From Turnera subulata (taxonomy: Eukaryota; Streptophyta; Magnoliopsida; Malpighiales; Passifloraceae): a DNA stretch of 64,000 nucleotides. The position numbers and the translations under genes are program-made. The notes under the pieces were generated by a model. The model had not been told where the DNA came from, did not search any database, and saw nothing but the letters and a program-made list of their open reading frames with translations. The stretch spans positions 1 to 64,000 of the forward strand of contig JAKUCV010006869.1 of NCBI GenBank assembly GCA_028386065.3, in the 5' to 3' direction. The first letter of the stretch is position 1, and each line of letters begins with the position of its first letter. This document shows, piece after piece, positions 1 through 37,558 of the stretch.

Positions 1-198
1 TTTCCAGTTTTGGCCGAAATTGATCGTTCTCGGTAGCGAAGAGGGACGATTTTACACCTGAAAACATAATTGTTAGTTCAAGCAATTTATTCAACAATAA
101 AACAAAGAAAGATAAGTAAATGCATGATTTTTATTCAAAATAATAATAATAAAGAAGTTTTCATGCCTTTAATACTATGTGAAATATGTGCACATCAT
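1..198. other. Unclassified sequence abutting truncated LTR
   Basis: This stretch has no counterpart at the equivalent place in the right-hand LTR of the same element, which is alignable only from about 199 onward. Read on the minus strand it contains a T-rich tract ending in a TTTTCAG acceptor-like site near 63-69, followed by a GC-richer segment. It is either flanking DNA joined by a deletion or a variant LTR interior. I recognise no gene in it. Confidence 0.4.
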
Positions 199-2001
199 CT
201 GGTCCGACGCCGGCTCCTCGGGAAACTGCCCGATATCAAACCTATACATCAAAACAACATATATACATAAATGCACATAAGAGTATGTCATGATGCCAAT
301 ATTACGAATTAATCCCATCCCGATTAGTTATCCTTTATTATTTCCATTTATCGAAAATATTTAACCATCCGTATATCCGAATATAATTTCGGTACTATAT
401 TTTAATTAAAACTTTTTTAAAAAATGTATTTTCATAAAATAATTATAATTTACCAAAATATTAATCTCCATATTTTTTTCCAGAAAATAACAACCTATTT
501 ATAATTTTCAGAAAGTATTTATATAGTATTTATCTTTTTCTAAACATATATAATAATAATATTTTCCAATGCAAAATATAATTAACTTTAATTTCCAAAG
601 TATATATTTATATATATACTCCACAATCATAATTTTCCAGCCAAAATAATATACATATAAATTTCCAGAAATTAATTTCAAGGTACATATATATTTTTTT
701 CCAATTTAATAATAGTTTCCAAAACAAAACTTGATTATTTATCAAAGTAAATATATTTATATTTTAATAAAAATTTCAGAATCAAATTGTCCATAATTTT
801 CTAAAAATAAATATATATAATTTTTTCCAAAATTATATACCAGAATATATATATATTATTTTGTTAAATTTTTAAAAAAATAAATCGAACTGGGCTGAAC
901 AGGACCAAGCCCAGACCAAGGCAGCAGGCCCGCCAGGGTCCGGCCTAGCACCTGCCCACAGCCAAGCCCACGCGTACAGCCCAACCCAGAGGATCCAAGG
1001 CGCGACCCGACTGTTAAATGGGTCGGAAGCGGGTCAAGCGGGTCTCACCTCGGGTTGACGCAGCGGCGACGGCGTGTACGAGGCGGGGATGGACGAGCGA
1101 GCACAGCAGGGCACCAGCGGACTGAGAGCGGCGCGAGGGTGGCGGCAACTGGACACGACGTCGTCGGCAGGAGGCGGGAGACGCGAGGAGGACAGATCCG
1201 CCGGGTCTGTCACGGGTCGTCGGCGCGTCGCGGCGTGTCCGGCGGCGGAAGGACTCGGGGAAGGCGGCTCCAGGGTCGCGACGGCGTGGCGACTCCCCTG
1301 GCTGTGGCGGTGTGTCGAGACGCGGCGCGGATCGAGCCGGCGTGCACAGTAACCAGAGGCGTCTGGGTGACGGACTGTTCACCATATTTTTTTTCTTTTT
1401 TTCTTCTTTTTTTCGTATTTTCTTCTTCCTTTTTCTATTTTTCTGATTTCTCTTTTCTATTTTTTTTCTGATTTTTGATTCCCTTTTTTTTTCTCTTGTA
1501 TTTTTTTCTCTCGTTTTCTTCTTTTTTTTCTGTATATTTTTTTCTGTTTTTCTCTTTTTTTATTTTCCTTTTCCTTTTTTTCTTTTTCTCTCTTTTTCTC
1601 TCTTTCTTTTTTTTTCTCTCCTTTTCTTTTTTTTCCTTCTCTTCCTCTCCCGGTTCCTTCTTCCTCTGCTTCTTTTATAAACCTTTTTTTTTCTATTTGA
1701 CTTGTGAATCAATAATACAATTCGTCCGTATTACGGGCGAGTCCGATCCGGACCAGAAAATAACAGATACCTCCTTAGTTATTTTCAGGTGTGATTTTCC
1801 GAGAAATTCCGAAACCCGAAAAATACCAACTTAGTTCCGAAAAATCCACGGAAAAATCACGAGCGCGGGAAAACCCTCGGTTTCGAAAAAGACTCCCGAT
1901 TTACCTTGAATTAATTACCCAAGATTAATTCAACAGTAAATCTCGGTAAAAAGACTTCTACAGTCCCGGTAAAAATCCAAAATTTTACCCGGGCTGTTAC
2001 A
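199..2001 (-). mobile_element. Element A, truncated 3' LTR (minus orientation)
   Basis: The right edge reads ...CTGTTACA, the reverse complement of the TGTAACAG start shared by the LTRs here, and lies next to a PPT. The segment aligns with 5487-7065. It includes an AT-rich intron-like part, a GC-rich part (about 1000-1380) and a long pyrimidine tract (about 1385-1690). Compared with the right LTR it carries about 220 extra bases (about 480-700) bounded by short TTTTTTTCCA repeats. The first part of the LTR (plus-strand left) is missing, so no target duplication can be read for this end. Confidence 0.8.
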
Positions 2002-2039
2002 GACTACCCACCTTAAAAAGAATTTCGTCCCCGAAATTC
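2002..2039 (-). promoter_or_regulatory. Element A polypurine tract and adjacent hairpin
   Basis: On the minus strand an AAGGTGGG-type purine run lies immediately before the LTR start. It is preceded at 2020-2039 by a perfect 8-bp stem (GAATTTCG pairing with CGAAATTC) closed by a four-base loop. The PPT would prime second-strand DNA synthesis. The same layout occurs in elements B, C and D. Confidence 0.75.
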
Positions 2040-2145: not shown

Positions 2146-2153
2146 TATAAATA
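2146..2153 (+). promoter_or_regulatory. TATA box of antisense ORF1 (element A)
   Basis: TATAAATA lies 35 bases before the ORF1 start codon and is kept at the same distance in element B (37407-37414). Two imperfect hairpins between it and the PPT (about 2043-2069 and 2107-2138) are also shared by A and B. The direction of the box is opposite to LTR transcription. Confidence 0.6.
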
Positions 2154-2187
2154 CCAAACCTCATGACTGGCATACTCACACACAGTC

Positions 2188-2550
2188 ATGGACTCTCCAC
2201 TGAGATCAAGAACGACCTCTGACTCCGAGAACAACATCTACATCGGCGGCACAGCTTTCCCAACAAGCTCCGATGAAGAACCTCCAAAGAAACGGTTCAA
2301 GACCAACATCATCGGTCTGAAGGAGCACATGGTCGTTTCCCCAAAACGACGAAAGAAGCGAGTCCCCAAGAAAGCCGATGACAAGAAAGGCAAGGCGGTA
2401 GCTGAGAGCAGCACTCCGCAACTGAACTTCTCGCTGAAGAAGATCAGCTCGGCGGTGGCGCAAATCGAACTGGCGTGTGCGGAACTGTTCCCACACATGG
2501 AAAATGTCAAAAATCTTGTAAAAGATCTAGAGAAGCAAGTAGCTCAGTAG
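2188..2550 (+). CDS. Antisense ORF1 of element A, small basic protein
   Basis: This 120-residue ORF is antisense to the element carrying it. The N-terminus is serine-rich (starts MDSPLRSRTTSDSENN) and is followed by an acidic patch, then lysine/arginine clusters (PPKKRFK and KRRKKR, residues about 32-63) typical of nuclear localisation signals. The last 40 residues look amphipathic and could form a coiled coil (LACAELFPH, VKDLEKQV). The element B homologue (126 aa) differs by in-frame indels of one and about five residues and by scattered substitutions, the pattern expected of a protein under selection. I do not recognise the family. A nuclear, possibly nucleic-acid-binding, accessory role is inference. 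AATAAA-type signals follow the stop within about 50 bases. Confidence 0.65.
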   Translation: MDSPLRSRTTSDSENNIYIGGTAFPTSSDEEPPKKRFKTNIIGLKEHMVVSPKRRKKRVPKKADDKKGKAVAESSTPQLNFSLKKISSAVAQIELACAELFPHMENVKNLVKDLEKQVAQ

Positions 2551-2871
2551 AGTACTCCTTCTCCTGTTGTAAACCTTATAAAATAAATAAAATAAATTTC
2601 CTTTTAAATCAAAATCTCTTGTTATGAAATCTCATGTTAAACGGAAAATAAAACATCTCAAAGCAAAATAAAAATCGACTATAAGAATATAAAATCAAAG
2701 AAAAGAAAATTAAAAACAAAACTCGTTTAACAAAATCAAAACATAAAGAAATTAAAACAAAAACGTTTAACCAATTTCAAAACAAAAAGGAAATTAAAAC
2801 AAAATACGTTTTCATGATCGGCGTTCTTGATCGATCCTCGATCCCGAGAAACGTAACGTACGCAGCTAACG

Positions 2872-3135
2872 GTGACGTCTGTTAACCTCGTGAAGAAGAT
2901 ATCCGATAACTGGCAAGGCGATGATCACGGGAACGTCCTGTGTCCCTCGAAAGACACGTTACCCACTTGTCCACAAATTCCGCATGAGCCAAAGACGTTT
3001 GTCTCGTCTCGTATCTCTCCACGATGCCCAAACAACTGTAAACTTGTCGCACATGCGCTCTACTCGAGGTACGGTCCCATCCATCTAGCCTCAACGGTCA
3101 CGAATGCATGTGATAAAAGATGCAGAAAAATATAG
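2872..3135 (+). other. Conserved open region between the antisense ORFs (A)
   Basis: An open frame of about 87 codons begins at a GTG, not an ATG, and has an equivalent in element B (36286-36630) with roughly 75 percent amino-acid identity by hand count. Conserved blocks include CPSK, ISPRCPN and SRYGPI, with several cysteines. Changes are largely amino-acid changing, so constraint on protein is weaker than for ORF1 or ORF2. It may be an exon, an upstream regulatory region of ORF2, or only shared ancestry. Confidence 0.3.
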
Positions 3136-3325
3136 TAAAACCATGAGAAGAAAGGACAAGGTAGCCAGAGCGAAAGAAAATCATAAGACAGAAATAGGCT
3201 GAAAAACTTTGGCACGGTAATCCGAAAAACGCGTAAAGTATCAAAGCAATAAATGAAAACAACGGTAAATTTTCAAAAAGCAAAATCTTGAAAACCAAAA
3301 ACGGTAATCACGCTCCTCATAAGAG

Positions 3326-3333
3326 TATAAAAG
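3326..3333 (+). promoter_or_regulatory. TATA box of antisense ORF2 (element A)
   Basis: TATAAAAG lies 112 bases before the ORF2 start codon, giving a predicted leader of about 85-90 nt. The box and the GAAGGAGCGGTGA sequence after it are kept in element B (36179-36186, minus strand). Confidence 0.6.
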
Positions 3334-3445
3334 AAGGAGCGGTGATGTGTAAATCATCAGAAGCGTTTAAAAGCAAACAAAATATTCAGGCAACCAAAAA
3401 CCACAAAACTCTGAAAAACCAAACACCCACACGTTCTAGCACAAC

Positions 3446-4129
3446 ATGCCTGCTCCATCTTCCGTCTTCTTCGTCCAAGGTGCCAATCTTGGCAGAAGGA
3501 ATCGTCTAGCCTACAGCATGGTCAACGAGCGTGCTGAAGAACTACCGAACGAGCTCGGCAGAATGCCACGTCTAGTCTTCGTCGACGAGCTCTACTCATC
3601 GCGGTTCTTCGTCACTCCAATGGAAGAGGTGTTCTTCCTGAAGGACCACGGAACTCTGAGGACATCCTACTACAGATCGGCAAACTCCGTGATGTTCTTC
3701 ATCTCCGAAAGGCTTCAGGAGTTCAACCTGGAGTCCACTTGCCAGACTGTGGAGCAAGGCGCCTACTACCAACTCTCAATGACAGCTCAGAGCATGCCCA
3801 GAATGACTAGGCTACCTCCAACCTGGCCAAAGGCACGACTGCTGGTGTGGAACTGCAGAGGAGTAGCAAGGCGTGCCCAAGAATTCTCGCGTACCCTGAG
3901 GGACTTGAAGAACCAGTACAAACCGAACATGGTTCTTCTGACGGAGACACAGTGCCAACCACGGGACGATCACGGTCTCATCCCACTTCGGTTCCCTCAA
4001 GCTAACCGGTTCGAGATTCCTGGCCAGAGAGACAGAGGCGGCATGTGGTTCTCTTGGAGCGACAGAGTCACGGTCAACGTCAACAGCGATCCAAACAGCT
4101 TCCGTGTCAACGTCGTTCCGAATCGTTAA
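3446..4129 (+). CDS. Antisense ORF2 of element A with partial EEP domain
   Basis: This ORF has 227 residues. Residues about 1-125 form a domain I do not recognise (starts MPAPSSVFFV). Residues about 130-222 resemble the start of an endonuclease/exonuclease/phosphatase (AP-endonuclease-like) domain as found in plant LINEs: the strand with WNCRG, the KPNMVLLTET block holding the metal-binding Glu, and a GGMWFSW segment. Downstream catalytic blocks (GDFN-like and SDH-like) are absent, so nuclease activity is unlikely. The ORF is antisense to the LTRs. Its element B homologue is about 94 percent identical, and silent codon changes far outnumber replacements (about 25 to 4 in the first 79 codons, hand count). 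It appears to be a conserved cargo gene of the non-autonomous element; function unknown. Confidence 0.7.
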   Translation: MPAPSSVFFVQGANLGRRNRLAYSMVNERAEELPNELGRMPRLVFVDELYSSRFFVTPMEEVFFLKDHGTLRTSYYRSANSVMFFISERLQEFNLESTCQTVEQGAYYQLSMTAQSMPRMTRLPPTWPKARLLVWNCRGVARRAQEFSRTLRDLKNQYKPNMVLLTETQCQPRDDHGLIPLRFPQANRFEIPGQRDRGGMWFSWSDRVTVNVNSDPNSFRVNVVPNR

Positions 4130-4450: not shown

Positions 4451-4466
4451 GCCCGCTCCGCTACCA
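4451..4466 (-). promoter_or_regulatory. Primer binding site of element A
   Basis: On the minus strand TGGTAGCGGAGCGGGC begins three bases inside the LTR edge. It is related to but differs from the common plant initiator-Met PBS TGGTATCAGAGC. The same 12-base core is used by B, C, D and the copia element E. I do not assign the primer tRNA. Confidence 0.65.
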
Positions 4467-4779
4467 AAATGAAGCGCCCCGACCCGTATTTACCATACAC
4501 AGTAAACACAAGCCGGAACTGTGACAACCCAGCCCAACAAGGCCTAGCATACAGTGTAAACAACCATAACTCGGCCCAACGGCCCAAAATAATAAAACAA
4601 CATAAGTAACAAATCCGGCCCAATGGCCCAATAACTCAAATAACTGCACAGCGGAAGACTTATAACTCACATAAACACTGTATGCGACATAGATGCAAAC
4701 TATGGATCCAAGTCCTGTCCAAGGGATAACGCCGCAGCCTGTCTGGAAATGCATTTAACATGTACCACAAATAACTCAT

Positions 4780-4828
4780 CCTACGGGATGAAAGCCCGCA
4801 GGTGAGGGGTGAGTCCGAAGTGCTCACC
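4780..4828 (-). promoter_or_regulatory. Conserved double hairpin in LTR (A)
   Basis: There are two adjacent inverted repeats. The first, at 4780-4802, has an eight-position stem with one mismatch and a seven-base loop. The second, at 4808-4828, is GGTGAG pairing with CTCACC. Equivalent pairs stand in the LTRs of B, C and D at the same place. A role in RNA structure (dimerisation, packaging, 3'-end formation) is inference. Confidence 0.5.
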
Positions 4829-5459
4829 GACGAAGGAAAGACAATCAATATGCAACTAAAAATTACTCAAGGTCCAAATCACGTAAAAACCACCAAATTG
4901 AAAGACAGGACCCAAAACCGGTCCAAGACCAAATGACTCAAATAAAATCCAATTATCCAATTTTATCTTTCCGGGCCCCGTCACGGATAAGCTAGGGTCG
5001 TACCAGGTTTTCAACCTGTTCCTGGTGCCAGATCAAAAAGAACCCAGGGATAGACATCCCAAAAATAACAAACCGGGATAGACATCCCAAGCATAGATAT
5101 GCTTATCACACGAACCCAGATCATGGCCACCACAAAACAGTCTCTAACCATCCGGTCGTACCTCTACTTACCACATGACAATTATATTACCGTCATTAAA
5201 AATCAAATCACAGGATCGACATCCCTAACCAAAATACCAAGGATCGACATCCTTGTCACAATTCATTAATTATACCATTATACTTATTCCAAAAGACACA
5301 GAAAATCGACACGGGGATAAACATCCCAAAAACCAAACAAAACACCGGGATAAACATCCCGAACCCAAACACAGCTAAACCACAGCATCCAACAATGCAA
5401 TAACACCAAACACAGTAACCGAGTAATATAGGCACATATTGAAGGAAATCCATCCTCAC

Positions 5460-5535
5460 CTTGGTCGATTACTCAACTTCGGAAAACAATGTCCGGTCCG
5501 ACGCCGACTCATCGGGAAACTGCCCGATATCAAAC
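5460..5535 (-). other. Exon-like block inside LTR (A)
   Basis: In LTR sense it is preceded by a TATAG acceptor and followed by an AAG/GTGAGG donor; 76 nt. It contains a short acidic reading frame (DIGQFPDE...) ending in a stop. Blocks of 75, 78 and 66 nt with the same borders exist in the LTRs of B, C and D. Splicing is not proven. Confidence 0.4.
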
Positions 5536-7070
5536 CTATACATCAAAACAACATATACACATAAATGCACATAAGAGTATGTCATGATGCCAATATTACG
5601 AATTAATCCCATCCCGATTACTTATCCTTTATTATTTCTATTTATCGAAAATATTTAACCATCCGTATATCCGAATATAATTTCGGTACTATATTTTAAT
5701 TAAAACTATTTTTTAAAATATATTTTCATAAAATAATTATAATTTACCAAAATATTAATCTCCATATTTTTTTCCAATTTAATAATGGTTTCCAAAACAA
5801 AACTTAATTATTTATCAAAGTAAATATATTTATATTTTAATAAAAATTTCAGAATCAAATTGTCCATAATTTTCTAAAAATAAATATATAATTTTTTTCC
5901 AAAATTATATACCAGAAAATATATATATATTATTTTGTCAAATTTAAAAAAAAATAAATCGAACTGGGCTGAACAGGACCAAGCCCAGACCAAGGCAGCA
6001 GGCCCGCCAGGGTCCGGCCCAGCACCTGCCCACAGCCCAGCCCACGCGTACAGCCCAACCCAGAGGATCCAAGGCGCGACCCGATTGTTAAATGGGTCGG
6101 ATGTGGGTCAAGCGGGTCTCACCTCGGGTTGACGCAGCGGCGACGACGTGTACGAGGCGGGGATGGACGAGCGAGCACAGCAGGGCACCAGCGGACTGAG
6201 AGCGGCGCGAGGGTGGCGGCAACTGGACACGACGTCGTCGGCAGGAGGCGGGAGACGCGAGGAGGACAGATCCACCGGGTCTATCACGGGTCGTCGGCGC
6301 GTCGCGGCGTGTCCCGCGGCGGAAGGACTCGGGGAAGGCGGCTCCGTGGTCGCGACGGCGCGGCGACTCCCCTGGCTGTGGCGGTGTGTCGAGACGCGGC
6401 GTGGATCGAGCCGGCGTGCACAGTAACCAGAGGCGCCTGGGTGACGGACTGTTCACCATATTTTTTTTCTTTTTTTCTTCTTTTTTTCGTATTTTCTTCT
6501 TCCTTTTTCTATTTTTCTGATTTCTCTTTTCTATTTTTTTCTGAATTTTGATTCCTTTTTTTTCTCTTGTATTTTTTCTCTCGTTTTTCTTCTTTTTTTC
6601 TGTATATTTTTTTCTGTTTTTCTCTTTTTTTTATTTTCCTTTTCCTTTTTTTCTTTTTCGCTCTTTCTTTTTTTTTCTCTCCTTTTCTTTTTTTTTTCTT
6701 CTCTTCCTCTCCCGGTTCCTTCTTCCTCTGCTTCTTTTATGAACCTTTTTTTTTACTATTTGACTTGTGAATCAATAATACAATTCGTCCGTATTACGGG
6801 CGAGTCCGATCCGGACCAGAAAATAACAGATACCTCCTTAGTTATTTTCCGGTGTGATTTTTCGAGAAATTCTGAAACCCGAAAAATACCAACTTAGTTC
6901 CGAAAAATCCACGAAAAAATCACGAGCGCGGGAAAACCCTCGGTTTCGAATAACGACTCCCGATTTACCTTGAATTAATTACCCAAGATTAATTCAACAG
7001 TAAATCTCGGTAAAAAGACTTCTACAGTCCCGGTAAAAATCTAAAATTTTACCCGAGCTGTTACATAATA

Positions 7071-15960: not shown

Positions 15961-18067
15961 AATAATGTTAAGAATAAACCAATATACCTAGCTCTGTTTC
16001 TCATTGATTTGAAAAGGCATGCTAACATAATTTTTTAAAAAAATATGACAAAAAACGGATCAATATATTTAGTTATGCCATTTCTTATTTTATTTTGAGC
16101 GTGACATTTTTCTTTTTTTTCTAAGAGTAATTCTTTTTACTTCATCTTAGGCGGGTTGGAAGAATTATCAATTAATAACCTTAATTAAGACATGTTGTGT
16201 TCCGTAAAACAACAATGAAAATTATGTGGATGCTGCAGTTAAGGTGACTTTTTTAGAATAGACAGATATGGCCATTTTTTTCGTGAATGATGTAGATCCC
16301 TTCAATTGTTGTTATGTTTTGTTAAATGGTACTTTAATTGGTATTTGATGCAACTACGCTCATGCATACAGCATTATTGGATTTTTGACCAAAAACAAAA
16401 AGAGTAATTGGAATTTGATGATATGAATGTTTTTTGCACAATCCATATGCAAATAATCCCTATTATGGGCGATTTGAATCATAATGCTTATATGTAAAGG
16501 GAAAAAAATAATTAACAAAATATGAATATAAAAGAAAGATCATGTCTCAAAAAAACTTAATTAATATAGACTCTATACTAAAATAAAATTTTTCAAAGAA
16601 AATATATGAAACTTGAAAATTATAAATTAAGAAGTCAATAGAATAATTACATTAATATAATATGTAACAGCCCGGGTAAAATTTATGTTTTTAGCGGGAC
16701 TGTAAAAAACTTTGTACAGTAATTTACCTTATGAAATTAATCTTAGGTGATTATTTCAGGGTAAATTATGCATTGGATTCCGAAACCGACCCTTACCCCA
16801 CGTCCTAGATTTTTCTGCGGATTTTACGGACCAGAGTTGGTATTTTTCGGGTCCAGGAATCTTAAGAAAAGTCAGGTTTAACCTCGAACTAACGGACTGG
16901 AAATTAAGTCAAGGGGGCATTATAGTTATTTTCTGGTCCGGACGGTACACGACTGCATGATTGAGTCACGCAGTCGCCTCTTTCCTGTGCAGTCCGTGTT
17001 TTTCCTGTGTAACCTGTGATCTTTCTTTGTTTTTCTTTCTTCCCGTGTCTTCAGTTCCCAGTGCACCAACACCCTCATCTTCTCTTCTGTAATTTTTCTC
17101 TGCACACTCACTGCCCAGCAACCAACACTCTTCCTTCTTCACAAAACCAGAAAAAGAAACCAGAAAATAAAAACAAACACAACACAACCGCCACCAACAC
17201 ACCAGCCGTGCCGACCGCCACCACCAGCTCCACCAACCGCCACATCCAACCACCATCCACCGTCACCATCACCTTCTCCTCGCGACGAGACACCGTTGCC
17301 GCCTCCTTCGCACCGTCAGGCCGCGCCTGCAGCCGGCCACGCTTCGTTGTCGTCCAAGTCGAGACGAACTCGACAAAGCAAGAACGCCCGGCCGCCGGCT
17401 TCCCCTCACTTGGTCTCCTTCCTCGCGACTCCACACGCGCGGACACCACCGTCAACCACCTCGCCAGCTCGCCGTTCCGTGCCACCCTCGCTCGCCATCG
17501 CCGATCGGTGGAGGCAAGCCCAAGCAAGCCGTCGGGTTTGCCACAACACCAGCAACGACCGTTCGCCTCCTGCCGTCCACCTGCACGCCGCGTACGCCAC
17601 CACAGCCGTCGCCCTTCGACGCTGCCCGTGTCTCCTCACGCGATGCCGCCTCCGTACCGACCACGCCGCCGCCGTCTGACACATAGGCGAGCAGACCCGT
17701 CTAAGGTTGGGGACGACCCGGATGGGTCGAGCCTGACCCGTTCCTTTGTGTTGGGTCGCGGGTTGACCAGGGTCGGATGGATATGGATGTGAGTTGGGTT
17801 GGGCTTGGACATGGGCTAATAACGGGCCACTGTTCAAGGCCCAGTCCGAATTAATTTTTTTCAAAAAAGGAAGAATAAATGTATATATATAATTCTAGAA
17901 ATATAAAAAAATATATATATTACGAATTGTAATTTTTATGGGAAGTATAAAAGTATGGTATATGGTTATATTTTGTAGAAATAAAAGAAGTAACTACTTG
18001 ATATAATATTTTCAAGAAATCAAGGTAATTATAACATGATAATGGTAAATGCCTTTAAGGATATATA

Positions 18068-18670
18068 TAGGGATGGCAAAAATCCCCATTGTCGAGGGAT
18101 CCGCGGGGATTCCCCGCTGTGGGGACGGAGATGGGGGCGATTATGGACCTGTGGGGATGGGGATGGGGAGGATTTTCAACCCGAGACTAATTTGAGGATG
18201 GGGATGGGGATCATAGTACCCGCCCCGCGGGGATCCGCAAAAATATTAAGTAACGATTTTACCCTTCTAGTTCTCCATATACAAATATATATATTTCAAG
18301 TTTGGGTTTTTACCCATTTTGTTCAAGTATAAAACAAAAAAAAAAGGTAAAAAGATAATATAATATAAACTATAAGTTCACTTCAATTCACTTATTTTAT
18401 TTTATTTTCCTTTCTAGGGTTGATTGGATTTGAATCTTTTGGTGGTAATATATAGTTTTAGATAATAATATATTGAAGTGATGAAAATTTAAAATGTATA
18501 ATTTGAGTCGTGGGGATCCGCGGGGATCCGTGGGGATTGCGGGGAGCGGGGATGGGGATAAAATTCCCCCCGCAACGGGGGATGGGGATGGGGATGGGGA
18601 GAGTTTTAAGTCGCGGGGATGGGGCGGGGATTCCTCTACCCGCACATTCCCCGCCCCGTTGCCATCCCTA
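18068..18670. mobile_element. hAT-type MITE inside the LTR of element C
   Basis: A 603-bp insertion with perfect 12-bp inverted ends (TAGGGATGGCAA / TTGCCATCCCTA) and 8-bp target duplication GATATATA (18060-18067, 18671-18678). The uninterrupted site is preserved in the 3' LTR near 26603, proving insertion after C had integrated. The ends of the insert are G-rich, made of GGGGATGGGGAT and GGGGATCCGCGG words in opposite orientations; the centre is AT-rich. No transposase. Confidence 0.92.
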
Positions 18671-19350
18671 GATATATATAGTGAAAATGCTTTACCAGAA
18701 AAATATATATATGGTATACCTAAGTAATATTTCTGGAAAAAGATTATTATGTTGATAATATAATTGTTTAGGGATGTAGTATATCTTTAGAAAATAAATA
18801 TGCATACCTACACTTATTTTCAGAAATTATGTTCATATGATTATATTTTCTAGAAAAAGAGTACATATAGTGTAAGCTTACCTTAATATATATATTTGAT
18901 AAATAATAATTTTCTGGATATATATATTTATATTTATATTTATATTTAATTTATGTTGTTAGGAAAAAAATAAGGAATATGACGTAATGTTGAGAATTTA
19001 GGTTAAATGACATAATTTATTAAATGAAAGTATTTTCTGATATATATATAATTTGGTAAGTATTTATTATGGTGATGCTTTTATCTTATGGAAAAGAATA
19101 TATGATATGGTAAACAATAATTTTTATGGAAATATTTTGGAAAGGGTATTATCAAAGTATTATACCGGAATAATATCCGGGCATAAGAATAGTAGGTATT
19201 TTGACACATGAATAGTAAATAGTGAATTATGATGATAACGGGATTTCACCGGGACGTAAACGAACCAGTTTTAAGTTTTATTTTTACGGTATAGCATCAT
19301 TTGCATTTATGTGCATCTTATGTGTGTATATGTTATTATTTGCTATATAG

Positions 19351-19428
19351 GAGCTGATAACGAGCAGTATCCCGAGGAACCAGAGCCGGGACACTTCGAG
19401 GATTTTCAGGAGTAGGAAATCGGCTAAG
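19351..19428 (+). other. Exon-like block inside LTR (C)
   Basis: Preceded by GCTATATAG and followed by CTAAG/GTGAGG. Contains an acidic frame reading ADNEQYPEEPEPGHFEDFQE then a stop. Homologous in position to blocks in the LTRs of A, B and D. Confidence 0.4.
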
Positions 19429-20004
19429 GTGAGGATGGATAACCTTTGATATGTCGCACATAATACTGTGTTTGTTTCTCTGGTTATTATTTTGCCTGAT
19501 TGAACTGCTGAGCCAATTGAGTTGATTTGTGGTGTTATTGCTGTTGTTGTTGATTTATTGATTGTGGGTAAACTGATATGATGAGATAATTGGATAATCA
19601 AAAGTTGTGTTGACGACTTTATTGTCATTTGAAAAGTAGTGGTACGACTAGATGGTTAGAGACTGTTTTGTGGTGGCTATGATCTGGGTTACTTGTGATA
19701 AGCATGTCTATGCTTGGGATGTTTATTCCGTGATTATATTTTTGGGATATCTATCCCTGGGATCTATTTTTGGGATGTCGTTCCCTTGGGCTCTCTTGGA
19801 TTTATGTAGCACTCGAAGCATGTTAATAACCAGGTACGACCCCAGCTTGTCCAGTGACAGGGCCCCGAAAGATAAAATTGGTAATAATAAATATTCTTTT
19901 GGTCTTGGCTCAGTTGTGTTCTGGATGTTTCACTGTTTTGTCTTTGCTTGTACTTTACTTTGAAAGTATTGTGTTTGCCTGCATATTACTATTTATCCTT
20001 CGTC

Positions 20005-20053
20005 GGTGAGCACTTCGGACTCACCTCTCGCCTGTGGGGTTTCATCCCGTAGG
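20005..20053 (+). promoter_or_regulatory. Conserved double hairpin in LTR (C)
   Basis: 20005-20025 folds as GGTGAG/CTCACC, and 20031-20053 folds as CCTGTGGG with CCCGTAGG around a TTTCAT loop. They lie in the same order as in B and D. Confidence 0.5.
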
Positions 20054-20380
20054 ATGAGTTGCTCGTAGTACAGGTACGTGGTTCGGCCAGTTGCTGTTTC
20101 TACTCCACTAGTCCCCGGATCCATACCTCCGCTGCATCTCATTCTAAGTCTTCCGCTACTGATTATTATATGTTGCTATATTTTATATATTGCTGTATCA
20201 TATGTTTTCTGCTACCGCTGTTGTGGCTTGAATAATGATCCCCGGGATCGGGTAACGGATGTGTATTTGGGATTGCTTTGTACTGTATTTTATAATGTAT
20301 GTACTGTCTGCTACTGTAATAAGAATAGTTCTGGGACGTGTTTACCCTGTATGGTAAATACGGGTCGGGGTGCTTCATTT

Positions 20381-20396
20381 TGGTAGCGGAGCAGGC
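20381..20396 (+). promoter_or_regulatory. Primer binding site of element C
   Basis: TGGTAGCGGAGCAGGC starts three bases after the LTR end. It has the same core as in A, B, D and E. Confidence 0.65.
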
Positions 20397-20500
20397 AGTA
20401 GGTCCTTAGGGTGATAAACTGCCTGTTTGTTGCCTATATGAGCATATTCTAGTCATTCTCTTGGCATAACACGCATGCATACATTCTCATATAGGTACGA

Positions 20501-21661
20501 ATGGATCCGGTGGGAGGAAACCAGTATGCTGACCATCGCTTGGAAGATGACCAAGTATCGGTTGACCAGCCCCAACCAATCGTAGGTGGACAAGTACCCG
20601 CGGTTGTACCAGCAGACACCACACAGATGATGCACACCATGGCGCAGATCTTACAGCGTCAGGACGCTAGGGATGCCCGTTTGGAGGCCAGGGAAGCTTG
20701 TGAACAGGAGAATCAAGGACCTTTTGAGGACCCTGTTTACACTAAGCTGTCTAAGCTAGGTCTTGATGCCTTCACAGGGGTTACTAACCCACAGGCAGCT
20801 GATGAATGGCTTCGTCAAGCTCACCAAGTGATGCTGAAGCTGAGATGCACAGATGACAGGTGGGCTAAGTATGTTGCATCCATGTTTCGCAATGTTGCTG
20901 TGGATTGGTGGGATTCAGCAACACGTGACATGGTGAAACCAGTCACCATGCCTTGGACACAGTTTACTGAGATGTTCCGAAGGAAGTTTATCACAGATGT
21001 TTACCAGGACCAGCTCAAGCGAGAATTTCTGAGTCTGCGACAGCGAATCAGACAGTCGGTGAACGACTATGAGATCTAGTTTGATCGCTTATCCATCTAT
21101 GAATCTGAGTATGTGTCCACACTAGAGGCCAGATGCAAGCGCTTCTGGGATGGTTTGCGATCCTGCATCCAGACAGTCATGGGATGAAAAGTTTATGAGA
21201 CTTACCAGGATATGCTTGCAGTTGCTCTTCGAGCAGAAGTCATCTGGATGGGGAATGAGAGAGAGATGGAAGAAGTTCAAAAGAGGAAATCTGTACAGAA
21301 TGCTGGGAATCAGAACAAGAGGTTCCAGAGCACCGGTAACAGGTTAGGGTATGGACAGACTCAATCCATGCCAGTATCTCAGGGTCGAGGATGGAGCAAC
21401 AGCTACAACAACAATCATGGGAGTTCATGGACCCAATCTGGGGGGACTTCATCCGGAGACACTCACCCTAGACCTCCTCTGACTAGGGTGAGGTGCTTTG
21501 AGTGCAATGAAGTTGGGCATTACCGGAGTTAATGTCCTAGGTTGGGAAGATCTGGAGTTACTGTTCTTGCTCACACTGTACAAGCATCAGTGGCCAGCGT
21601 ACCCAGTGGTTCTGGAGTTGGCCGAGGCCGTGGACGAAGAGCTGCTCCTACTCGAACATAG
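20501..21661 (+). pseudogene. gag of element C, inactivated
   Basis: The frame opens MDPVGGNQYADH. It encodes a Ty3/gypsy Gag domain with PVYTKLSKLGLDAFTG, ADEWLRQAHQVM and the WW-containing core VDWWDSATRDM, followed by a Gln/Gly-rich linker and a zinc knuckle (CFECNEVGHYRS, CCHC). Gag would form the cytoplasmic particle. In-frame stops occur at 21077, 21185 and 21531, the last just before the final Cys of the knuckle. Reading continues to a stop at 21659. Confidence 0.85.
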
Positions 21662-21667
21662 TCAGCC

Positions 21668-23122
21668 ATGAACCAGAGTGCAGTCGCTCCGAGGGCATTT
21701 GTGATCACAACTGAGGATGATCCTGAGAACGCTGATGTTATTGTAGGTACCTTTACAGCTTTCAGTAGTATTGCATACACTTTGATTGATCCTGGTGCCA
21801 CACATTCTTTTATCACTCAGAGTTTTGCTATACAACATAGCTATAAGGAAGAGAGTTTAGCATGTCCGTTGAGGGTTAGGTTGCCCGCGGGCATAGTGGT
21901 GAGATTAACCCAAGTGTGCAAGGATGTTCTCCTTTCATATGATGATGAGGTTTTCTTAGCTCGTTTGGTTGTGATGAATATGGAGGGATTCGATATAATC
22001 CTAGGGATGGATTGGTTGTCGAGATACAATGCCCTGGTGAACTATCGGACCATGGAAGTGCTGCTGACTTCCGATGGTGGACGACGAGTTTTGGTAACAG
22101 GTATTAAGAAAGTTGCTGCCACGTGTAGCATCTCTGCTATGCAGGAGTTTGGAGTGAAGCCGCATAGTCTAGATGTTTTGCTGACCCATATCACCGGTGA
22201 AGATACACAGGATCCTACCCCGGGAGATATATCAGTGGTGAAGGAGTTCCTTGATGTTTTCCCACATGATTTGCCAGGTTTGCCACCCGACAGAGAGGTT
22301 GAGTATACCATCGACCTGATGCCAGGAGTCACACCTATATCGATGGCTCCGTACAGGATGGCACCAACAGAGCTCCAGGAGCTATAGAAGCAGTTGGATG
22401 AGCTGTTGGAAAAGGGTTTCATCAGACCCAGTACCTCACCATAGGGTGCGCCAGTTCTGTTTGTCAAGAAGAAGGATGGTAGCTTGCAGATGTGTGTAGA
22501 TTACCGCCAGCTGAACAAGGTGACAATTAAAAACAAGTACCCGTTGCCTAGGATTGATGACTTCTTTGACCAGTTGCAAGGAGCCACTGTGTTTTCCAAG
22601 ATTGATCTTCGGTCTGGGTATCATCAGATCAAGATTGCAGAGAAAGACATACGGAAGACTGCCTTTCGCACACGGTATGGTCATTTCGAGTTCACAGTGG
22701 TACCGTTCGGATTGACCAATGCACCAGCAGTGTTCATGTGCTTGATGCACTTGGTCTTGAACGAGTTTCTGGATAAGTTTGTTGTGGTCTTCATTGACTA
22801 TATCCTCATTTACTCTAAGAGCAAGGAGGAACATGAGGAGCATTTGAGGATAGTGCTTCAGAGGTTACGGGAGAAGCAGTTGTATGCCAAATTCAGCAAG
22901 TGTGAATTTTGGCTTGGAGAAGTTTCTTTCCTCGGACATGTGGTAGGCGGAGATGGAATAAAGGTTGACCTCGCCAAAGTGAAGGCTGTGTTGGAATGGG
23001 AACCACCTAAGAATGTATCCGAAGTCAGAAGTTTTCTTGGTCTTGCAGGATACTATCGGAGGTTCATCGAAGGTTTTTCTTTGATAGCTAGTCCCATGAC
23101 CAAGCTATTAAGGAAACAATAG
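21668..23122 (+). pseudogene. Protease and reverse transcriptase of element C, inactivated
   Basis: A retropepsin-like region has the DPGATHSFI active-site motif and LGMDWLSRY. It is followed by RT blocks ([62 protein letters not shown]). The catalytic F-x-DD box reads FIDYIL: the second aspartate is replaced by tyrosine, which should abolish polymerisation. In-frame stops occur at 22385, 22441 (from Trp in SPWGAP) and 23120. Block order and sequence fit the Tekay/Del chromovirus lineage. Confidence 0.88.
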
Positions 23123-23608
23123 GCATTTGTTTGGAGCCTGGAATGTCAACAGAGTTTTGAAGAGCTTAAGAGGAAGCTGACCACAGTACCGGTTCTGACA
23201 GTACCGAGGCTCAGAGTGGAGTATGTGTTGTTTTGTGATGCATCGGGACTTGGTTTAGGAGCTGTGCTGATGCAAGAAGGACGGGTGATTACCTACGCCT
23301 CTAGGCAGTTGAGGACTCATGAGAAGAATTACCCGACACATGATCTTGAGATGGCAGCTGTGATCTTGGCTCTGAAGATTTGGAGACACTACCTGTTTGG
23401 AGAGAAGTGTCGGATTTTCACTGACCATAAGAGTCTTAAGTACATCATAACTCAGAAGGAGTTTAACCTACGACAGAGACGTTGGGTTGAGTTACTTAAT
23501 GATTATGACTGTACTATCGAGTATCATCCAGGAAAGGCTAATGTGGTAGCTGATGCCTTGAGCCGAAGACAACTAGAGGATACTTCCACTAGTTACTCGA
23601 TGTTCTAG
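23123..23608 (+). pseudogene. RNase H of element C
   Basis: It continues the polyprotein: [19 protein letters not shown], the [17 protein letters not shown] segment, TDHKSLKY and the C-terminal [15 protein letters not shown]. RNase H would remove the RNA template during reverse transcription. The acidic residues of the D-E-D core can be seen. A TAG at 23606 interrupts the link to integrase (D reads on here). Confidence 0.85.
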
Positions 23609-25123
23609 CTTATCGAGATAAGGAAGCTAGGAGTTGGCTTGACAGTGGATGATACAGGAGCTTTGCTGGCACACATGAGTGTCAAGTCTAGCCTAAGAGG
23701 ATGGATAGTGGAGTTACAAGATGGGGATCCCGACCTGGTCAAGCTTAAAGAAGGAGTAAGGAGTGGAAAAGAGGACAAGTTCCATATAGCTGATGATGGA
23801 GCACTGATGATTGGGAAACGGGTATGTGTACCCAATGTCAGTAATCTGCGTAATCAGATCCTAGAAGAAGGTCATATGACGCCATATGCGATGCATCCTG
23901 GAAGCACCAAGATGTATCAGAACCTGAAGAGCCATTTCTGGTGGCCTCGTATGAAGAAGGATGTAGCTAAGTATGTTGCAAGATGTCTTACTTGCCAACA
24001 AGTGAAAGCTGAGCATCAAGCTCCAGCAGGAAAGTTGAGATCTTTGTCAGTGCCAGAATGGAAGTGGGAGACGATCACCATGGATTTTGTGATTGGTTTA
24101 CCGATCACTCGGAGGCAGCATGATGCTATTTGGGTCATCGTTAATCGATTAACAAAATCGGCTCATTTTCTACCTATCTGCCAAACCGATACCATGGACA
24201 CATTGGCGGGTAAGTATGTTGCTGAGATTGTGAGACTACTTGGGATTCCTAAGTCTATAGTCTCAGACAGGGATTCGAGGTTCACATCACATTTTTTGAA
24301 GAGCTTACAAGCTGATTTGGGAACTAAGTTGAGCTTCAGCACTGCTTTTCATCCTCAGACGGATGGACAGTCTGAGAGGATCATACAGACACTGGAGGAT
24401 ATGTTGAGGGTTTGTGCACTTAACTTCAGTGGGAGTTGGGATAAGTATCTAACATTGGCTGAGTTTGCGTATAACAACGGCTACCATTCCAGCATTGGTA
24501 TGCCACCTTTTGAGGCTCTCTATGGAAGGAAGTGTAGAAGTCCAGTGTGTTGGGATGAAGAAGGTATGAGACTGATCGTTGGACTAGAATTAGTCCAACA
24601 GACAGTGGACAAGATCCAGATGGTGAGACAGTGTATGAGAGCTGCTCAGGATCGGCAGAAGAGCTACGCCGACAAACACCGACGGGAGATGGAGTATAAT
24701 GTTGGTGAGAAGGTCTTCCTCAGAGTAGCACCTTGGAAGGGTGTAATTAGGTTCGGCAAGAGAGGGAAGCTGAGCCCAAGGTATATCGGACCATATGAGA
24801 TCGTGGAGAGAATTGGACCACTAGCTTACAGGTTGTCCTTACCTGATGAGCTATCACGTATTCACGACGTGTTCCATGTCTCTACGCTGAGGAGATATCG
24901 ATCGGATCCTAGTCACATTGTAGCCCCAGTGGATGTTGAGGTAGCAGAGGATCTTACCTACACAGAAGTGCCGGAACAGATTCTTGCTCGAGAAGTTCGA
25001 CAGTTGCGGAACCGTACCATTCCCATGGTTAAGGTCAAGTAGAGTAAGCATTCTGCTAACGAGTCTACTTGGGAAGTTGAAGAACACATGCGGTCAAAGT
25101 ATCCGCATCTCTTCACAGAATAG
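23609..25123 (+). pseudogene. Integrase and chromodomain-like tail of element C
   Basis: An HHCC zinc-binding region (HMTPYAMHPG ... ARCLTCQQ), then the catalytic core with DFVIGLP, SDRDSRFTSHF and a [12 protein letters not shown] block. These give a DD35E-type set. The GPY/F-type segment (RYIGPYEIVERIGPLAYRL) is followed by a chromodomain-like tail (PEQILAREVRQLRNRTIPMVKVK ... STWEVEEHMRSKYPHLF). The tail is typical of chromoviruses and would direct insertion to particular chromatin. One TAG at 25040 replaces the Trp seen in D (KVKW). The final stop is at 25121, just before the PPT hairpin. Confidence 0.88.
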
Positions 25124-25127
25124 GAAT

Positions 25128-25160
25128 GAATTTTGAGGACAAAATTCTTTTAAGGGGGGT
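25128..25160 (+). promoter_or_regulatory. Element C PPT and adjacent hairpin
   Basis: The stem GAATTTTG / CAAAATTC with loop AGGA is at 25128-25147; the purine run AAGGGGGG at 25153-25160 precedes the 3' LTR. Relative to A, B and D the stem has changed on both sides and still pairs. Confidence 0.7.
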
Positions 25161-25164
25161 AGAC

Positions 25165-28100
25165 TGTAACAGCCCGGGTAAAATTTATGTTTTTACCGGG
25201 ACTATAAAAAACTTTGTACAGTAATTTACCTTATGAAATTAATCTTGGGTGATTATTTCAGGGTAAATTATGCATTGGATTCTAAAACCAACCCTTACCC
25301 CATGTCCAAGAATTTTCTACGAATTTTACGGACCAGAGTTGGTATTTTTCGGGTCCACGAATCTTAAGAAAAGTCAGGTTTAACCTCGAACTAACGGACC
25401 AGAAATTAAGTCAAGGGGGCATTACAGTTATTTTCTAGTCCGGACGGTACACGACTGCATGATTGAGTCACGCAGCCGCCTCTTTCCTGTGCAGTCCGTG
25501 TTTTTCCTGTGTAACCTGTGATCTTTCTTTGTTTTTCTTTCTTCCCGTGTCTTCAGTTCCCAGTGCACCAACACCCTCATCTTCTCTTCTGCAATTTTTC
25601 TCTACACACTCACTGCCCAGGAACCAAAACCCTTCATTCTTCACAAAACCAAAAAAAGAAACCAGAAAATAAAAAGAAAATAAACACAAACACAACACAA
25701 CACAACCGCCACCAACACACCACCCCTGCCGACCGCCACCACGAGCTCCACCAACCGCCATACCCAACCACCATCCACCGTCACCATCACCTTCTCCTCG
25801 CGACGAGACACCGTTGCCGCCTCCTTCGCACCATCAGGCCGCGCTTGCAGCCGGCCACGCTTCGTCGCCGTCCAAGTCGAGACGAACTCGACAAAGCAAG
25901 ATCGCCCGGCCGCGGCTTCCCCTGACTTGGTCTCCTTCCTCGCGACTCCACACGCGCGGACACCGCCGTCAACCACCTCGCCAGCTCGCCGTTCCGTGCC
26001 ACCCTCGCTCGCCGTCGCCGATCGGTGGAGGCAAGCCCAAGCAAGCCGCCGGGTTTGCCACAACACCAGCAACGCCCGCTCGCCTCCTGCCGTCCACCTG
26101 CATGCCGCGTACGCCACCGCAGCCGTCGCCGTCCGTGTCTCCTCACGCGATGCCGCCTCCGTACCGACCACGCCGCTGTCGTCTGACACATAGGTGAGCA
26201 GACCCATCTAAGGTTGGGGACGACCCGGATGGGTCGAGCCTGACCCGTTCCTTTGTGTTGGGTCGCGGGTTGACCCGGGTCGGATGGATATGGATGTGAG
26301 TTAGGTTGGGCTTGGGTTTGTGCACCTGGGCCTGGGTTGGTTGGGCTTGGACATGGGCTGATAACGGGCCACTGTTCAAGTCCCAGTCCGAATTAATTTT
26401 TTTTTTAAAAAGGAAGAATAAATGTATATATATAATTCTGGAAATATAAAAAAAATATATATTACGAATTGTAATTTTTCTAGGAAGTATAAAAATATGG
26501 TATATGGTTATATTTTGTAGAAATAAAAGAAGTAACTACTTGATATAATATTTTCAAGAAATCAAAGTAATTATAACATGATTATGGTAAATGCCTTTAA
26601 GGATATATATAGTGAAAATGCTTTACCATAAAAATATATATATGGTATACCTAAGTAATATTTCTGAAAAAATATTATTATGTTGATAATATAATTGTTT
26701 AGGGATGTAGTTTATCTTTAGAAAATAAATATGCATACCTATACTTATTTTCAGAAAATATGTTCGTATGATTATATTTTCTGGAAAAAGAGTACATATA
26801 GTGTAAGCTTACCTTAATATATATATTTGATAAATAATAATTTTCTGGATATATATATTTATATTTATATTTATGTTGCTAGGAAAAAAAATAAGGAATA
26901 TGACGTAATGTTGAGAATTTAGGTTAAATGACATAATTTATTAGATGAAAGTATTTTCTGATATATATATAATTTGGTAAGTATTTATTATGGTGATGCT
27001 TTTATCTTATGGAAAAGAATATATGATATGGTAAACAATAATTTTTATGGAAATATTTTGGAAAGGGTATTATCAAAGTATTATACCGGAATAATAACCG
27101 GGCATAAGAATAGTATGGTATTTTGACACATGAATAGTAAATAGTGAATTATGATGATAACGGGATTTCACCGGGACGTAAACGAACCAATTTAAGTTTT
27201 ATTTTTACGGTATAGCATCATTTGCATTTATGTGCATCTTATGTGAGTATATGTTATTATTTGCTATATAGGAGATGATAACGAGCAATATCCCGAGGAA
27301 CTAGAGCCGGGACACTTCGAGGATTTTCAGGAGTAGGAAATCGGCTAAGGTGAGGATGGATAACCTTTGATATGTCACACATAATAGTGTGTTTGTTTCT
27401 CTGGTTATTATTTTGCCTGATTGATCTGCTGAGCCAATTGAGTTGATTTGTGGTGTTATTGCTGTTGTTGTTGATTTATTGATTGTGGGTAAACTGATAT
27501 GATGAGATAATTGGATAATTGGAAGTTGTGTTGACGACTTTATTGTCACTTGGAAAGTAGTGGTACGACTAGATGGTTAGAGACTGTTTTGTGGTGGCTA
27601 TGATCTGGGTTACTTGTGATAAGCATGTCTATGCTTGGGATGTCTATCCCGTGATTATATTTTTGGGATGTCTATCCCTGGGATCTATTTTTGGGATGTC
27701 GATCCCTGGGCTCTCTTGGATTGATCTAGCACCCGAAACATATTAATAAACAGGTACGACCCTAGCTTGTCCAGTGACAGGGCCCCGAAAGATAAAATTG
27801 GTAATAATAAATATTCTTTTGGTCTTGGCTCAGTTGTGTTCTGGATGTTTCTCTGTTTTGTCTTTGCTTGTACTTTACTTTGAAAGTATTGTGTTTGCCT
27901 GCATATTACTGTTTATCCTTCGTCGGTGAGCACTTCGGACTCACCCTTCGCCTGCGGGGTTTCATCCCGTAGGATGAGTTGCTCGTAGTATAGGTATGTG
28001 GTTCGGCCAGCTGCTGTTTCTACTCCACCAGTCCCCGGATCCATACCTCCGCTGCATCTCATTCTAAGTCTTGCGCTGCTGATTATTATATGTTGCTATA

Positions 28101-28297
28101 TTTTATATGTTGCTGTATCATATGTTTTCTGCTACCGCTGTTGTGGCTTGAATAATGGTCCCCGGGATCGGGTAACGGATGTGTATTTGGGATTGCTTTG
28201 TACTGTATTTTATAATGTATGTACTGTCTGCTACTGTAATAAGTATAGTTCTGGCACGTATTTACCCGGTACGATAAATACGGGTCGGGGCGCTTCA
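25165..28297 (+). mobile_element. Element C 3' LTR
   Basis: 3133 bp, TGTAACAGCCCGGG to GGGCGCTTCA, then target duplication TAATA. It lacks the MITE found in the 5' LTR. It has about 35 extra bases near 26300-26345 and several small indels in the GC-rich leader that change its reading frames, arguing against a protein encoded there in C. Confidence 0.9.
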
Positions 28298-33638: not shown

Positions 33639-33713
33639 GTTCGGATATCGGGCAGTTTCCCGAGGAGCCGACGTCGGACCGGTCATTATTTCCTGAGTTA
33701 GTAATCGGCTAAG
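33639..33713 (+). other. Exon-like block inside LTR (B)
   Basis: A TATAG acceptor and CTAAG/GTGAGG donor border 75 nt. The frame DIGQFPEEPTSDRSLFPELV ends in TAA inside the block. In the 3' LTR, the open frame across the GC-rich leader would join this frame in phase if CACAAG/GTGAGC is used. Confidence 0.4.
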
Positions 33714-34290
33714 GTGAGGTTAAGTAAATATTTATTTACATCCCGTGATATCAAGTTGCTGTTTGTTTACTAAGTCCAATGATGCTGGTATGATACTTTG
33801 TGGCTGTGTATGGTTTGTTGTGCGATGAATTATGTTGATAACTGTTGCCATCGATGTTGTTGAGAATATTGCTACTGTTGAGTTGTTGACTATATGTGAC
33901 ATTGCTGGTGTGAAGCCTTGTGGCAGTGTATGGTTGTTGTGTGAGGTATTAAGTTGATAATTGTTGCCGTTAATGTTGTTGAAATTATTGTTGCTGTTGA
34001 TATAATTGATGATGTTGGGATTGTGGATATAAGTAAGATTATTGTAGTTGTTGACTGTAGAATTGTGAGAATTGAGTACCGGGGGTACTATTATGTGATG
34101 ACAGTTTGATATTGGTTATTATCCAGACGAGCGGAGAGGCTGCGAGCCTGCTCGGGATAATGAGATAATGGGTGGATGATAGAGATGTGGTAATTAGTCG
34201 AAGAAAAAGGAAATAATAAAATTGAATACGCTTAGACATCTAGTGAGTCACAGTTAAATGTTGGAACAGCTAGATGGTAGTCTGATTTAT

Positions 34291-34400
34291 GGTGCTGGGG
34301 GAGAGTGTGCTTGGGGTCTGCTCCCTGTCTGTACCAATTATTATTTTTAGGCGCTGGGGGAGAGTGTGCTTGGGGTCTGCTCCCTGTCTGTGCCAGTTTT
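34291..34400 (+). repeat. 60-bp tandem repeat, two units (B 5' LTR)
   Basis: Units start at 34291 and 34351 and share GGGGGAGAGTGTGCTTGGGG. The 3' LTR has three units (40265-40430), so copy number changed after insertion. Confidence 0.8.
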
Positions 34401-34619
34401 ACGTGGAGGTACCAGGGCGGGGTCCACGGGTTAGCTAGCTTGACTACCAGGCGACGGCCATCATTTAACTTGTGATAGGGGCCCTGATAATAAAATTGGA
34501 ATAGCGTGTCTAGAATCACCAGTGTGTATTTAAGGTTCATGAGAACCTTGGTTAGTTGTTGTGTTGTGACTTGGATTATTTACGGTGTTGTATATGTATA
34601 TTTGCTTATGGGTTTACCC

Positions 34620-34668
34620 GGTGGGCACTTCGGACTCACCCCTCACCTGCGGACTTTCATCCCGTAGG
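34620..34668 (+). promoter_or_regulatory. Conserved double hairpin in LTR (B)
   Basis: 34620-34640 and 34646-34668 fold like those in A and C. In this copy the second stem has one mismatch; the 3' LTR copy pairs better. Confidence 0.5.
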
Positions 34669-35062: not shown

Positions 35063-35078
35063 TGGTAGCGGAGCGGGC
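35063..35078 (+). promoter_or_regulatory. Primer binding site of element B
   Basis: TGGTAGCGGAGCGGGC, three bases after the LTR end; identical to that of A. Confidence 0.65.
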
Positions 35079-36178: not shown

Positions 36179-36186
36179 CTTTTATA
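36179..36186 (-). promoter_or_regulatory. TATA box of antisense ORF2 (element B)
   Basis: TATAAAAG on the minus strand, 104 bases before the start codon; conserved with element A. Confidence 0.6.
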
Positions 36187-37372: not shown

Positions 37373-37406
37373 GACTGTGTGTGAGTATACCAGTCATGAG
37401 GTTTGG

Positions 37407-37553: not shown

Positions 37554-37558
37554 TATAA

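Follow-up and report, generated by a model that had tools for sequence, protein, structure and literature searches.

Two long terminal repeat (LTR) retrotransposons, here termed A and B, lie in a 64,000-nucleotide stretch of Turnera subulata DNA (GCA_028386065.3, contig JAKUCV010006869.1, positions 1 to 64,000; hereafter the window). Both are without gag-pol, and each holds two intact open reading frames (ORFs) on the strand opposite to its LTRs; both frames were shown to be under strong purifying selection. An earlier note on this DNA had described the two ORFs read against the LTRs and proposed that selection maintained them. Comparison of A with B confirmed the arrangement and bore out the proposal, with ratios of nonsynonymous to synonymous divergence (dN/dS) of 0.062 for ORF2 and 0.168 for ORF1; a value near 1, which the note had named as refuting, was not seen in this pair. 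We consider it probable that A and B represent a long-lived non-autonomous branch of Tekay type that lost gag-pol before the two copies split, and that its two antisense genes act as nuclear accessory factors. The ORFs and their TATA boxes are located as follows.

2188-2550, + strand, ORF1 of A, 120 amino acids
3446-4129, + strand, ORF2 of A, 227 amino acids
37372-36992, - strand, ORF1 of B, 126 amino acids
36075-35392, - strand, ORF2 of B, 227 amino acids, 94% identical to ORF2 of A
2146..2153, + strand, TATA box of A ORF1
3326..3333, + strand, TATA box of A ORF2
37407..37414, - strand, TATA box of B ORF1
36179..36186, - strand, TATA box of B ORF2

Purifying selection on both antisense frames

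The dN/dS ratio was computed for a single pair, A versus B. ORF2 differed by 55.5 synonymous and 15.5 nonsynonymous changes (dN/dS 0.062, bootstrap 0.029-0.107) and ORF1 by 26 and 18 (dN/dS 0.168, bootstrap 0.079-0.325), with dS of 0.41 and 0.49 for the two ORFs. Codons 1-80 of ORF2 gave 26.5 synonymous and 4.5 nonsynonymous differences, in agreement with the roughly 25 silent changes and 4 replacements that the note had counted in 79 codons. By codon position, the differences numbered 11, 4 and 56 in ORF2 and 8, 9 and 27 in ORF1. In a permutation test, the same substitutions were moved over sites of the same sequence context, 5,000 times per ORF. The observed amino-acid changes were 14 versus a permuted mean of 46.7 (ORF2) and 16 versus 30.0 (ORF1), and 0 of 5,000 permutations were as low in either case. 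Omega calculated from transversions only was 0.081 (ORF2) and 0.255 (ORF1). Methylation-driven C-to-T change was considered as a source of the high dS; the context-matched and transversion-only tests left the conclusion as before.

Two pol blocks compared between the gag-pol elements of the window, C and D, served as a yardstick. They gave dN/dS of 0.061 and 0.056 in the coding frame and values from 1.3 to 2.1 in the two remaining frames of that strand, a rough measure in which stop codons were skipped (4 and 9), dS reached the high values of 1.19 and 1.54, and the integrase block extends a little beyond the end of pol. By this rough comparison the constraint on ORF2 is close to that on pol in the window, and ORF1 is less constrained. 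A large retrotransposon derivative (LARD) is a large element whose internal region has no coding capacity; the two frames under purifying selection set A and B apart from that class.

Substitutions between A and B affected 71 of 684 sites in ORF2, which had no indel, and 44 of 363 in ORF1, which had two, of 3 and 15 nt; the note had likewise described in-frame indels in ORF1. The spacer (2551-3325) carried 151 substitutions in 760 aligned sites (Jukes-Cantor (JC) distance 0.23) and 13 indels, nine of them not multiples of three. The note's claim that noncoding DNA is the more diverged held against the ORFs as a whole and failed against synonymous sites, where dS (0.41 and 0.49) exceeded the spacer distance. 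The stretches next to the polypurine tract (PPT) and the primer-binding site (PBS) matched the ORFs in conservation, with 0.077 and 0.085 as their proportions of differing sites.

When the internal region of A was shuffled 1,000 times (mononucleotide), the longest ORF reached 227 amino acids in none of the shuffles and 120 amino acids in 67, and therefore the length of ORF1 alone proves little. Under simulated neutral decay at the spacer divergence with indels, ORF2 stayed open in 0 of 2,000 runs and ORF1 in 1 of 2,000; without indels, the counts were 16 and 84. As the indel number is drawn two times in this simulation, damage from indels comes out too low, to the advantage of the neutral case. 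These results bear on the idea that the two frames are recently captured, functionless pieces of host genes, open by chance. Capture of gene pieces by LTR elements is on record in a review (PMC7264820), and the end of ORF2 resembles a piece of an EEP endonuclease. Against this stand both dN/dS values, the permutations, the decay simulation and the fact that the capture would precede the A-B split, and independent capture from a constrained host gene is countered by the collinear noncoding parts of A and B; we find chance capture hardly credible.

A lineage without gag-pol

Elements were delimited by self-BLAST of the window, which is plant DNA rich in LTR retrotransposons, and their termini were read in the sequence. 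Four elements, A to D, are relevant here.

4470..7065, - strand, right LTR of A, its 5' LTR in element sense (self-BLAST, termini read)
1..2001, - strand, 3' LTR of A in element sense, truncated because the window begins within it (self-BLAST)
4455..4466, - strand, PBS of A, TGGTAGCGGAGC, the same 12 bases in B, C and D
2002..2016 (limits approximate), - strand, PPT of A, adjoining its 3' LTR
2021..2038, - strand, stretch adjoining the PPT of A; its element-sense reading is NFGDEI, shared with the end of pol in D (NFEDKI in C)
31586-41091, + strand, element B, with the 5-bp target-site duplication (TSD) TATAT on both sides
31586..35059, + strand, 5' LTR of B (self-BLAST)
37559..41091, + strand, 3' LTR of B; Kimura two-parameter (K2P) distance of the LTR pair 0.0108
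35063..35074, + strand, PBS of B, the same 12 bases as in A, C and D
37546..37558 (limits approximate), + strand, PPT of B
16663..28297, + strand, element C, a gag-pol element with TSD TAATA; gag, protease, reverse transcriptase (RT) and integrase in several separate ORFs
41161 to about 59196 (right end approximate), - strand, element D, a second gag-pol element, broken; same PBS, similar PPT, nested element at 45018-53334

The internal regions of A and B, about 2.5 kb each, are without gag-pol, and the longest ORF with an ATG on their LTR-sense strand has 86 amino acids in A and 54 in B. B shows the features of a non-autonomous LTR element (LTR pair, TSD, PBS and PPT, no gag-pol); in A, whose outer left end lies beyond the window, the features compared exclude the TSD. 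The LTR parts of A are 96.5% (285 bases) and 95.9% (1,318 bases) identical by self-BLAST. The earlier note had reported LTR ends, PBS and PPT without gag-pol in A and B, and these termini proved to be common to C and D: the 12-base PBS, the TGTAACAGCCC LTR starts and similar purine tracts recur in all four. Orientation was assigned from the PBS and from the purine tracts adjoining the TGTAACAGCCC starts.

From the shared termini and the short stretch like the end of pol, rather than from an RT tree, we infer that A and B are of Tekay type. The NFGDEI stretch in A and B looks like a remnant of pol, but its DNA could also have been retained for a role as a cis signal. Element C is inferred to be a gag-pol element of Tekay type and is likely the kind of partner that A and B use; the end of pol in D we take to be Tekay-like. 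Pfam placed gag, protease, RT and integrase of C across four ORFs and found in three ORFs of D RT, RNase H and C-terminal parts of integrase, with a gag match below cut-off. Among the eight ORFs searched, Pfam listed no chromodomain.

The internal regions of A and B align throughout. The PPT side is collinear over 143 bases, with 11 substitutions and no indel, and the PBS side over 165 bases, with 14 substitutions and one 1-base indel. Their common ancestor was therefore already without gag-pol, and both genes therefore stayed under selection in its absence. At a rate of 1.3e-8 substitutions per site per year (PMC9744471), LTR divergence corresponds to insertion about 0.4 million years ago for B and 1.4 for A, and the spacer JC distance of 0.23 to roughly 9 million years. 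Since the divergence between A and B is older than both insertions, most of it arose earlier, while the lineages were moving. B combines a small LTR difference (K2P 0.0108) with two open ORFs.

A and B could, in principle, have arisen by deletion from an autonomous family that still exists and has both gag-pol and the cassette, much as Grande and Retand have antisense ORFs of their own; selection would then act on that master family, with A and B as by-products. In pol-bearing elements, known antisense accessory ORFs are indeed located between pol and the 3' LTR (PMC7264820, PMC11963269), and the cassette of A and B likewise sits just inside the 3' LTR. The collinear flanks, however, would make the deletion one old event that preceded a dS of 0.41-0.49, and self-BLAST found no antisense cassette in the gag-pol elements C and D. 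We regard this origin as unlikely and favour a branch that has long moved without gag-pol of its own.

Other features of the window were recorded alongside. The nested element in D (45018-53334) has LTRs of about 1.5 kb that are 95% identical and ORFs that appear Copia-like by eye; the 12 bases of TGGTAGCGGAGC also follow its left LTR, at 46529. A diverged tandem array (59200-61060) adjoins the right end of D. A 204-amino-acid ORF at 30255-30869, with a signal-like start, a proline-rich stretch and a cysteine-rich part by eye, matched nothing in Pfam at E 0.01 or below and is possibly a host gene. Rfam gave no match anywhere in the window at gathering thresholds.

The two proteins and their putative promoters

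The ORF1 protein is basic (isoelectric point 9.7-9.8) and has clusters, found by eye, that resemble nuclear localization signals (NLSs). Structure prediction gave two C-terminal helices (83-100 and 104-119) in blocks with a predicted local distance difference test (pLDDT) score of 72-91 and low values elsewhere (overall mean 63.4), so that ORF1 is predicted to end in a helical hairpin. No homologue was found at E up to 10 among 964 candidates, a weak negative.

In ORF2, residues 1-128 matched only DUF4995 (E 0.086 and 0.13), which was taken as chance, and a C-terminal piece (about 134-212) matched the start of the Exo_endo_phos family PF03372 with E 0.0026 in A and 0.053 in B. None of nine shuffles of the C-terminal piece of A matched PF03372, and the NCBIfam EEP model was the top weak match in both copies of ORF2 (E 0.028 and 0.019). 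To us, this piece resembles the corresponding part of a long interspersed nuclear element (LINE): with WNCRG followed by a Glu in TET/MET, it has the look of the initial third of the endonuclease of a plant LINE. The match covers profile positions 2-85 (A) and 2-72 (B) of the 225 in PF03372, short of a complete catalytic domain, and ORF2 differs from the LINE/EEP domain in having only its start, preceded by a 128-residue part of no recognized family. As the remaining two thirds of the endonuclease are absent, ORF2 is expected, judging from sequence, to have a binding role and not to cut.

The same region raises the idea that ORF2 is an active nuclease, a borrowed LINE endonuclease that nicks target DNA. 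In favour of it, the C-terminal piece of A matches the start of PF03372, and N136 and E167, which we take to belong to the catalytic motifs of the endonuclease, are kept in both copies. Yet the match spans at most positions 2-85 of the profile, ORF2 ends soon after, and the catalytic residues of the second half have no counterpart in ORF2. An active nuclease is highly improbable, and binding is the role that we retain.

Searches for relatives of ORF2 returned no homologue at E up to 0.01 (80 candidates) or up to 10 (147 candidates), a weak negative, as ORF2 of B was not listed either and the database may hold few plant repeats. A sequence search of the PDB with ORF2 of A and its C-terminal piece gave two matches and one match, respectively (E 0.78-1.5), taken as chance. 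Pattern matches in viral contigs (1 for ORF2, 16 for ORF1) and prokaryote contigs (22 for ORF2) yielded no confirmed relative. Weak family matches to decorin-binding protein, flagellin, DUF4995, HEAT_ULK4, CENP-F, Nup49 and COG3 were treated as chance.

Each gene is preceded by a TATA box. The note's positions 2146 and 3326 for A were right, and its 37407 and 36179 mark where the boxes of B end. From the ORF1 box to the ATG in A (2145-2187), 1 of 43 sites is substituted, against a spacer with substitutions at 151 of 760 (Fisher p = 0.002); around the ORF2 box (3301-3358), 4 were found in 58 sites compared to the rest of the spacer and 5' untranslated region (p = 0.006). Both stretches were chosen after the alignment had been viewed, which makes these p-values optimistic. 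The conserved stretches fit two separate, putative antisense promoters. In both copies, near-inverted arms, TCACGCTCC and GGAGCGGTGA, flank the ORF2 TATA box (within 3301-3358, by eye).

The best conserved spacer block (2831-3179) was used as a negative control for codon-position bias, and its differences (18, 15 and 22) showed none. It differs at 54 of 348 sites, better kept than the neighbouring spacer, and may serve as an enhancer of ORF2. Within the spacer a stretch of 92 codons in A and 119 in B is open, but a third gene there was rejected for want of codon bias; no ATG was seen in the part of the open stretch inspected.

The putative promoters also bear on an account in which antisense transcription itself matters and the proteins do not, with double-stranded RNA or promoter interference regulating the element. 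Antisense promoters and non-coding antisense RNAs do occur in retroelements, according to the review (PMC7264820), and conservation of the TATA stretches exceeds that of the spacer. The differences between A and B, however, follow the codon frame (11, 4 and 56 in ORF2), a pattern that a non-coding RNA does not give and that the spacer block does not show. Regulation by antisense RNA alone is thus very unlikely, and protein products remain the preferred basis of the selection observed.

Proposed role and relation to known systems

In the reading that we favour, the RNA of A and B would be packaged, reverse-transcribed and integrated in trans by Tekay proteins, a step proposed because A and B have the LTR ends, PBS and PPT of C and D. 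Each gene would be read against the element from its own TATA box, and both products would be nuclear accessory factors acting on the DNA or RNA of the element itself. ORF1 would be a basic, helical-hairpin nucleic-acid binder, and ORF2 a binder in which a new N-terminal domain precedes the beginning of an endonuclease fold of LINE/EEP type. Together they may keep copies expressed despite silencing, or favour these copies in the shared Tekay machinery; the note had suggested help in competing for Tekay proteins or in evading silencing. For selection on the element to hold the genes, the proteins must prefer their own family. Anti-silencing or transcriptional activation is a possible function that we put forward tentatively; a mobilisation adaptor for RNA packaging, nuclear import or integration is also conceivable, if somewhat unlikely, and these two are the foremost candidates. 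A more specific proposal is that a lineage without gag-pol lives on a two-protein antisense module, half-endonuclease plus basic hairpin, that protects or recruits its own copies specifically, as the counter-defence of a parasite's parasite; taken as a whole, this is possible but doubtful.

Several observations weigh against this reading. The comparison covers only two copies, both within the window. The greater divergence of synonymous sites than of the spacer (dS 0.41 and 0.49 versus JC 0.23) may mean that dS is inflated or that the spacer is partly constrained. The PF03372 match falls below the Pfam cut-off (18.0 bits in A and 13.7 in B versus 24.5), full-length ORF2 gave PF03372 at E 0.017 in A and no family at all in B, and two shuffles out of nine hit families of other kinds with E of 0.25-0.28, not far from the 0.053 of B. 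The structure prediction for ORF2 was of very low confidence (mean pLDDT 29.5). Finally, no DNA target is evident: the repeat array in the LTR of A is common to C and was not found in B.

Near-palindromic GGATNNACATCC sites were noted in the LTRs, six of them exact in the right LTR of A (5048-5359). C has three exact sites in its right LTR (27638-27705) and three with one mismatch in its left LTR (19717-19784). With up to one mismatch, 14 occur in the window versus 4.1 expected, and they might be bound by a factor of the host or of the element. B is without GGATNNACATCC sites and carries a different, 58-bp tandem repeat, with 2.9 copies in its 3' LTR (40259-40427) and about one copy fewer, by eye, in its 5' LTR (about 34285-34430).

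Grande and RIRE2 are non-chromovirus elements. Retand is one as well (PMC11963269). Conserved ORFs antisense to the element and inside the 3' LTR place A and B with the accessory class of Grande, RIRE2 and Retand. That some plant LTR elements carry extra antisense ORFs, as the note had stated, is well established: Grande gene23, RIRE2, Retand TRP28 and PvRetro13 are, as here, ORFs antisense just inside the 3' LTR and conserved among copies (PMC7264820). There, the Grande antisense ORF is credited with its own promoter and a nuclear product, and the functions of antisense accessory ORFs are called unknown (PMC7264820). This class is described in pol-bearing elements, whereas A and B have no gag-pol, two genes and no match to TRP28. 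In the Retand study, antisense ORFs encode TRP28 (PF04195) in all but two of 63 clusters, and 10 of the 63 are without some gag-pol domain (PMC11963269). Neither ORF of A or B returned TRP28 in a search that allowed E up to 10, where the HMMER filters discard most matches with E above 0.1.

Non-autonomous elements with foreign ORFs have a parallel in wheat. RLG_Sabrina variants NA2-NA8, with several hundred copies each, carry unique segments coding for short proteins in place of gag-pro, and four of the replacement segments have no homology to other wheat proteins (PMC9744471). Mobilisation in trans was inferred similarly for Sabrina/WHAM and Wilma, the Sabrina partner, RLG_Wilma, being recognized as here from a common PBS and LTR ends (PMC9744471). 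In the passages seen, compared by description only, the Sabrina account makes no mention of antisense orientation, a gene pair, own promoters or dN/dS (PMC9744471).

Accessory proteins of other elements offer models for function. The Tekay 5' accessory ORF of sunflower group 2 and grass Tekay elements is described as NLS-bearing, largely disordered and a proposed modulator of RNA silencing, a tie drawn from structural likeness (PMC11728184). Compared by description only, it differs in being marked (+), in its place in the 5' part of gag-pol elements, and in its length of about 400 amino acids (PMC11728184). VANC of VANDAL, an element-encoded accessory protein that acts on its own family, is a model for the anti-silencing reading (PMC12844716). 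VANDAL, in contrast, is a DNA transposon, and VANC binds motifs in tandem repeats of its noncoding DNA, again compared by description (PMC12844716).

Antisense accessory ORFs, like non-autonomous elements that carry foreign ORFs, are thus already known. Their combination, in an element without gag-pol whose antisense gene pair is under pol-like constraint, was not found in the titles, abstract openings and passages of the literature searched, in which subscription papers are poorly covered. Non-autonomous LTR elements are often regarded as passengers that play no active part. If a lineage that has no pol conserves two genes about as strictly as pol is conserved elsewhere, such elements would be able to compete actively. 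As the accessory genes stand alone here, their effect on element spread can be separated from that of replication genes. Taken together, the finding suggests that the two genes benefit the parasite.

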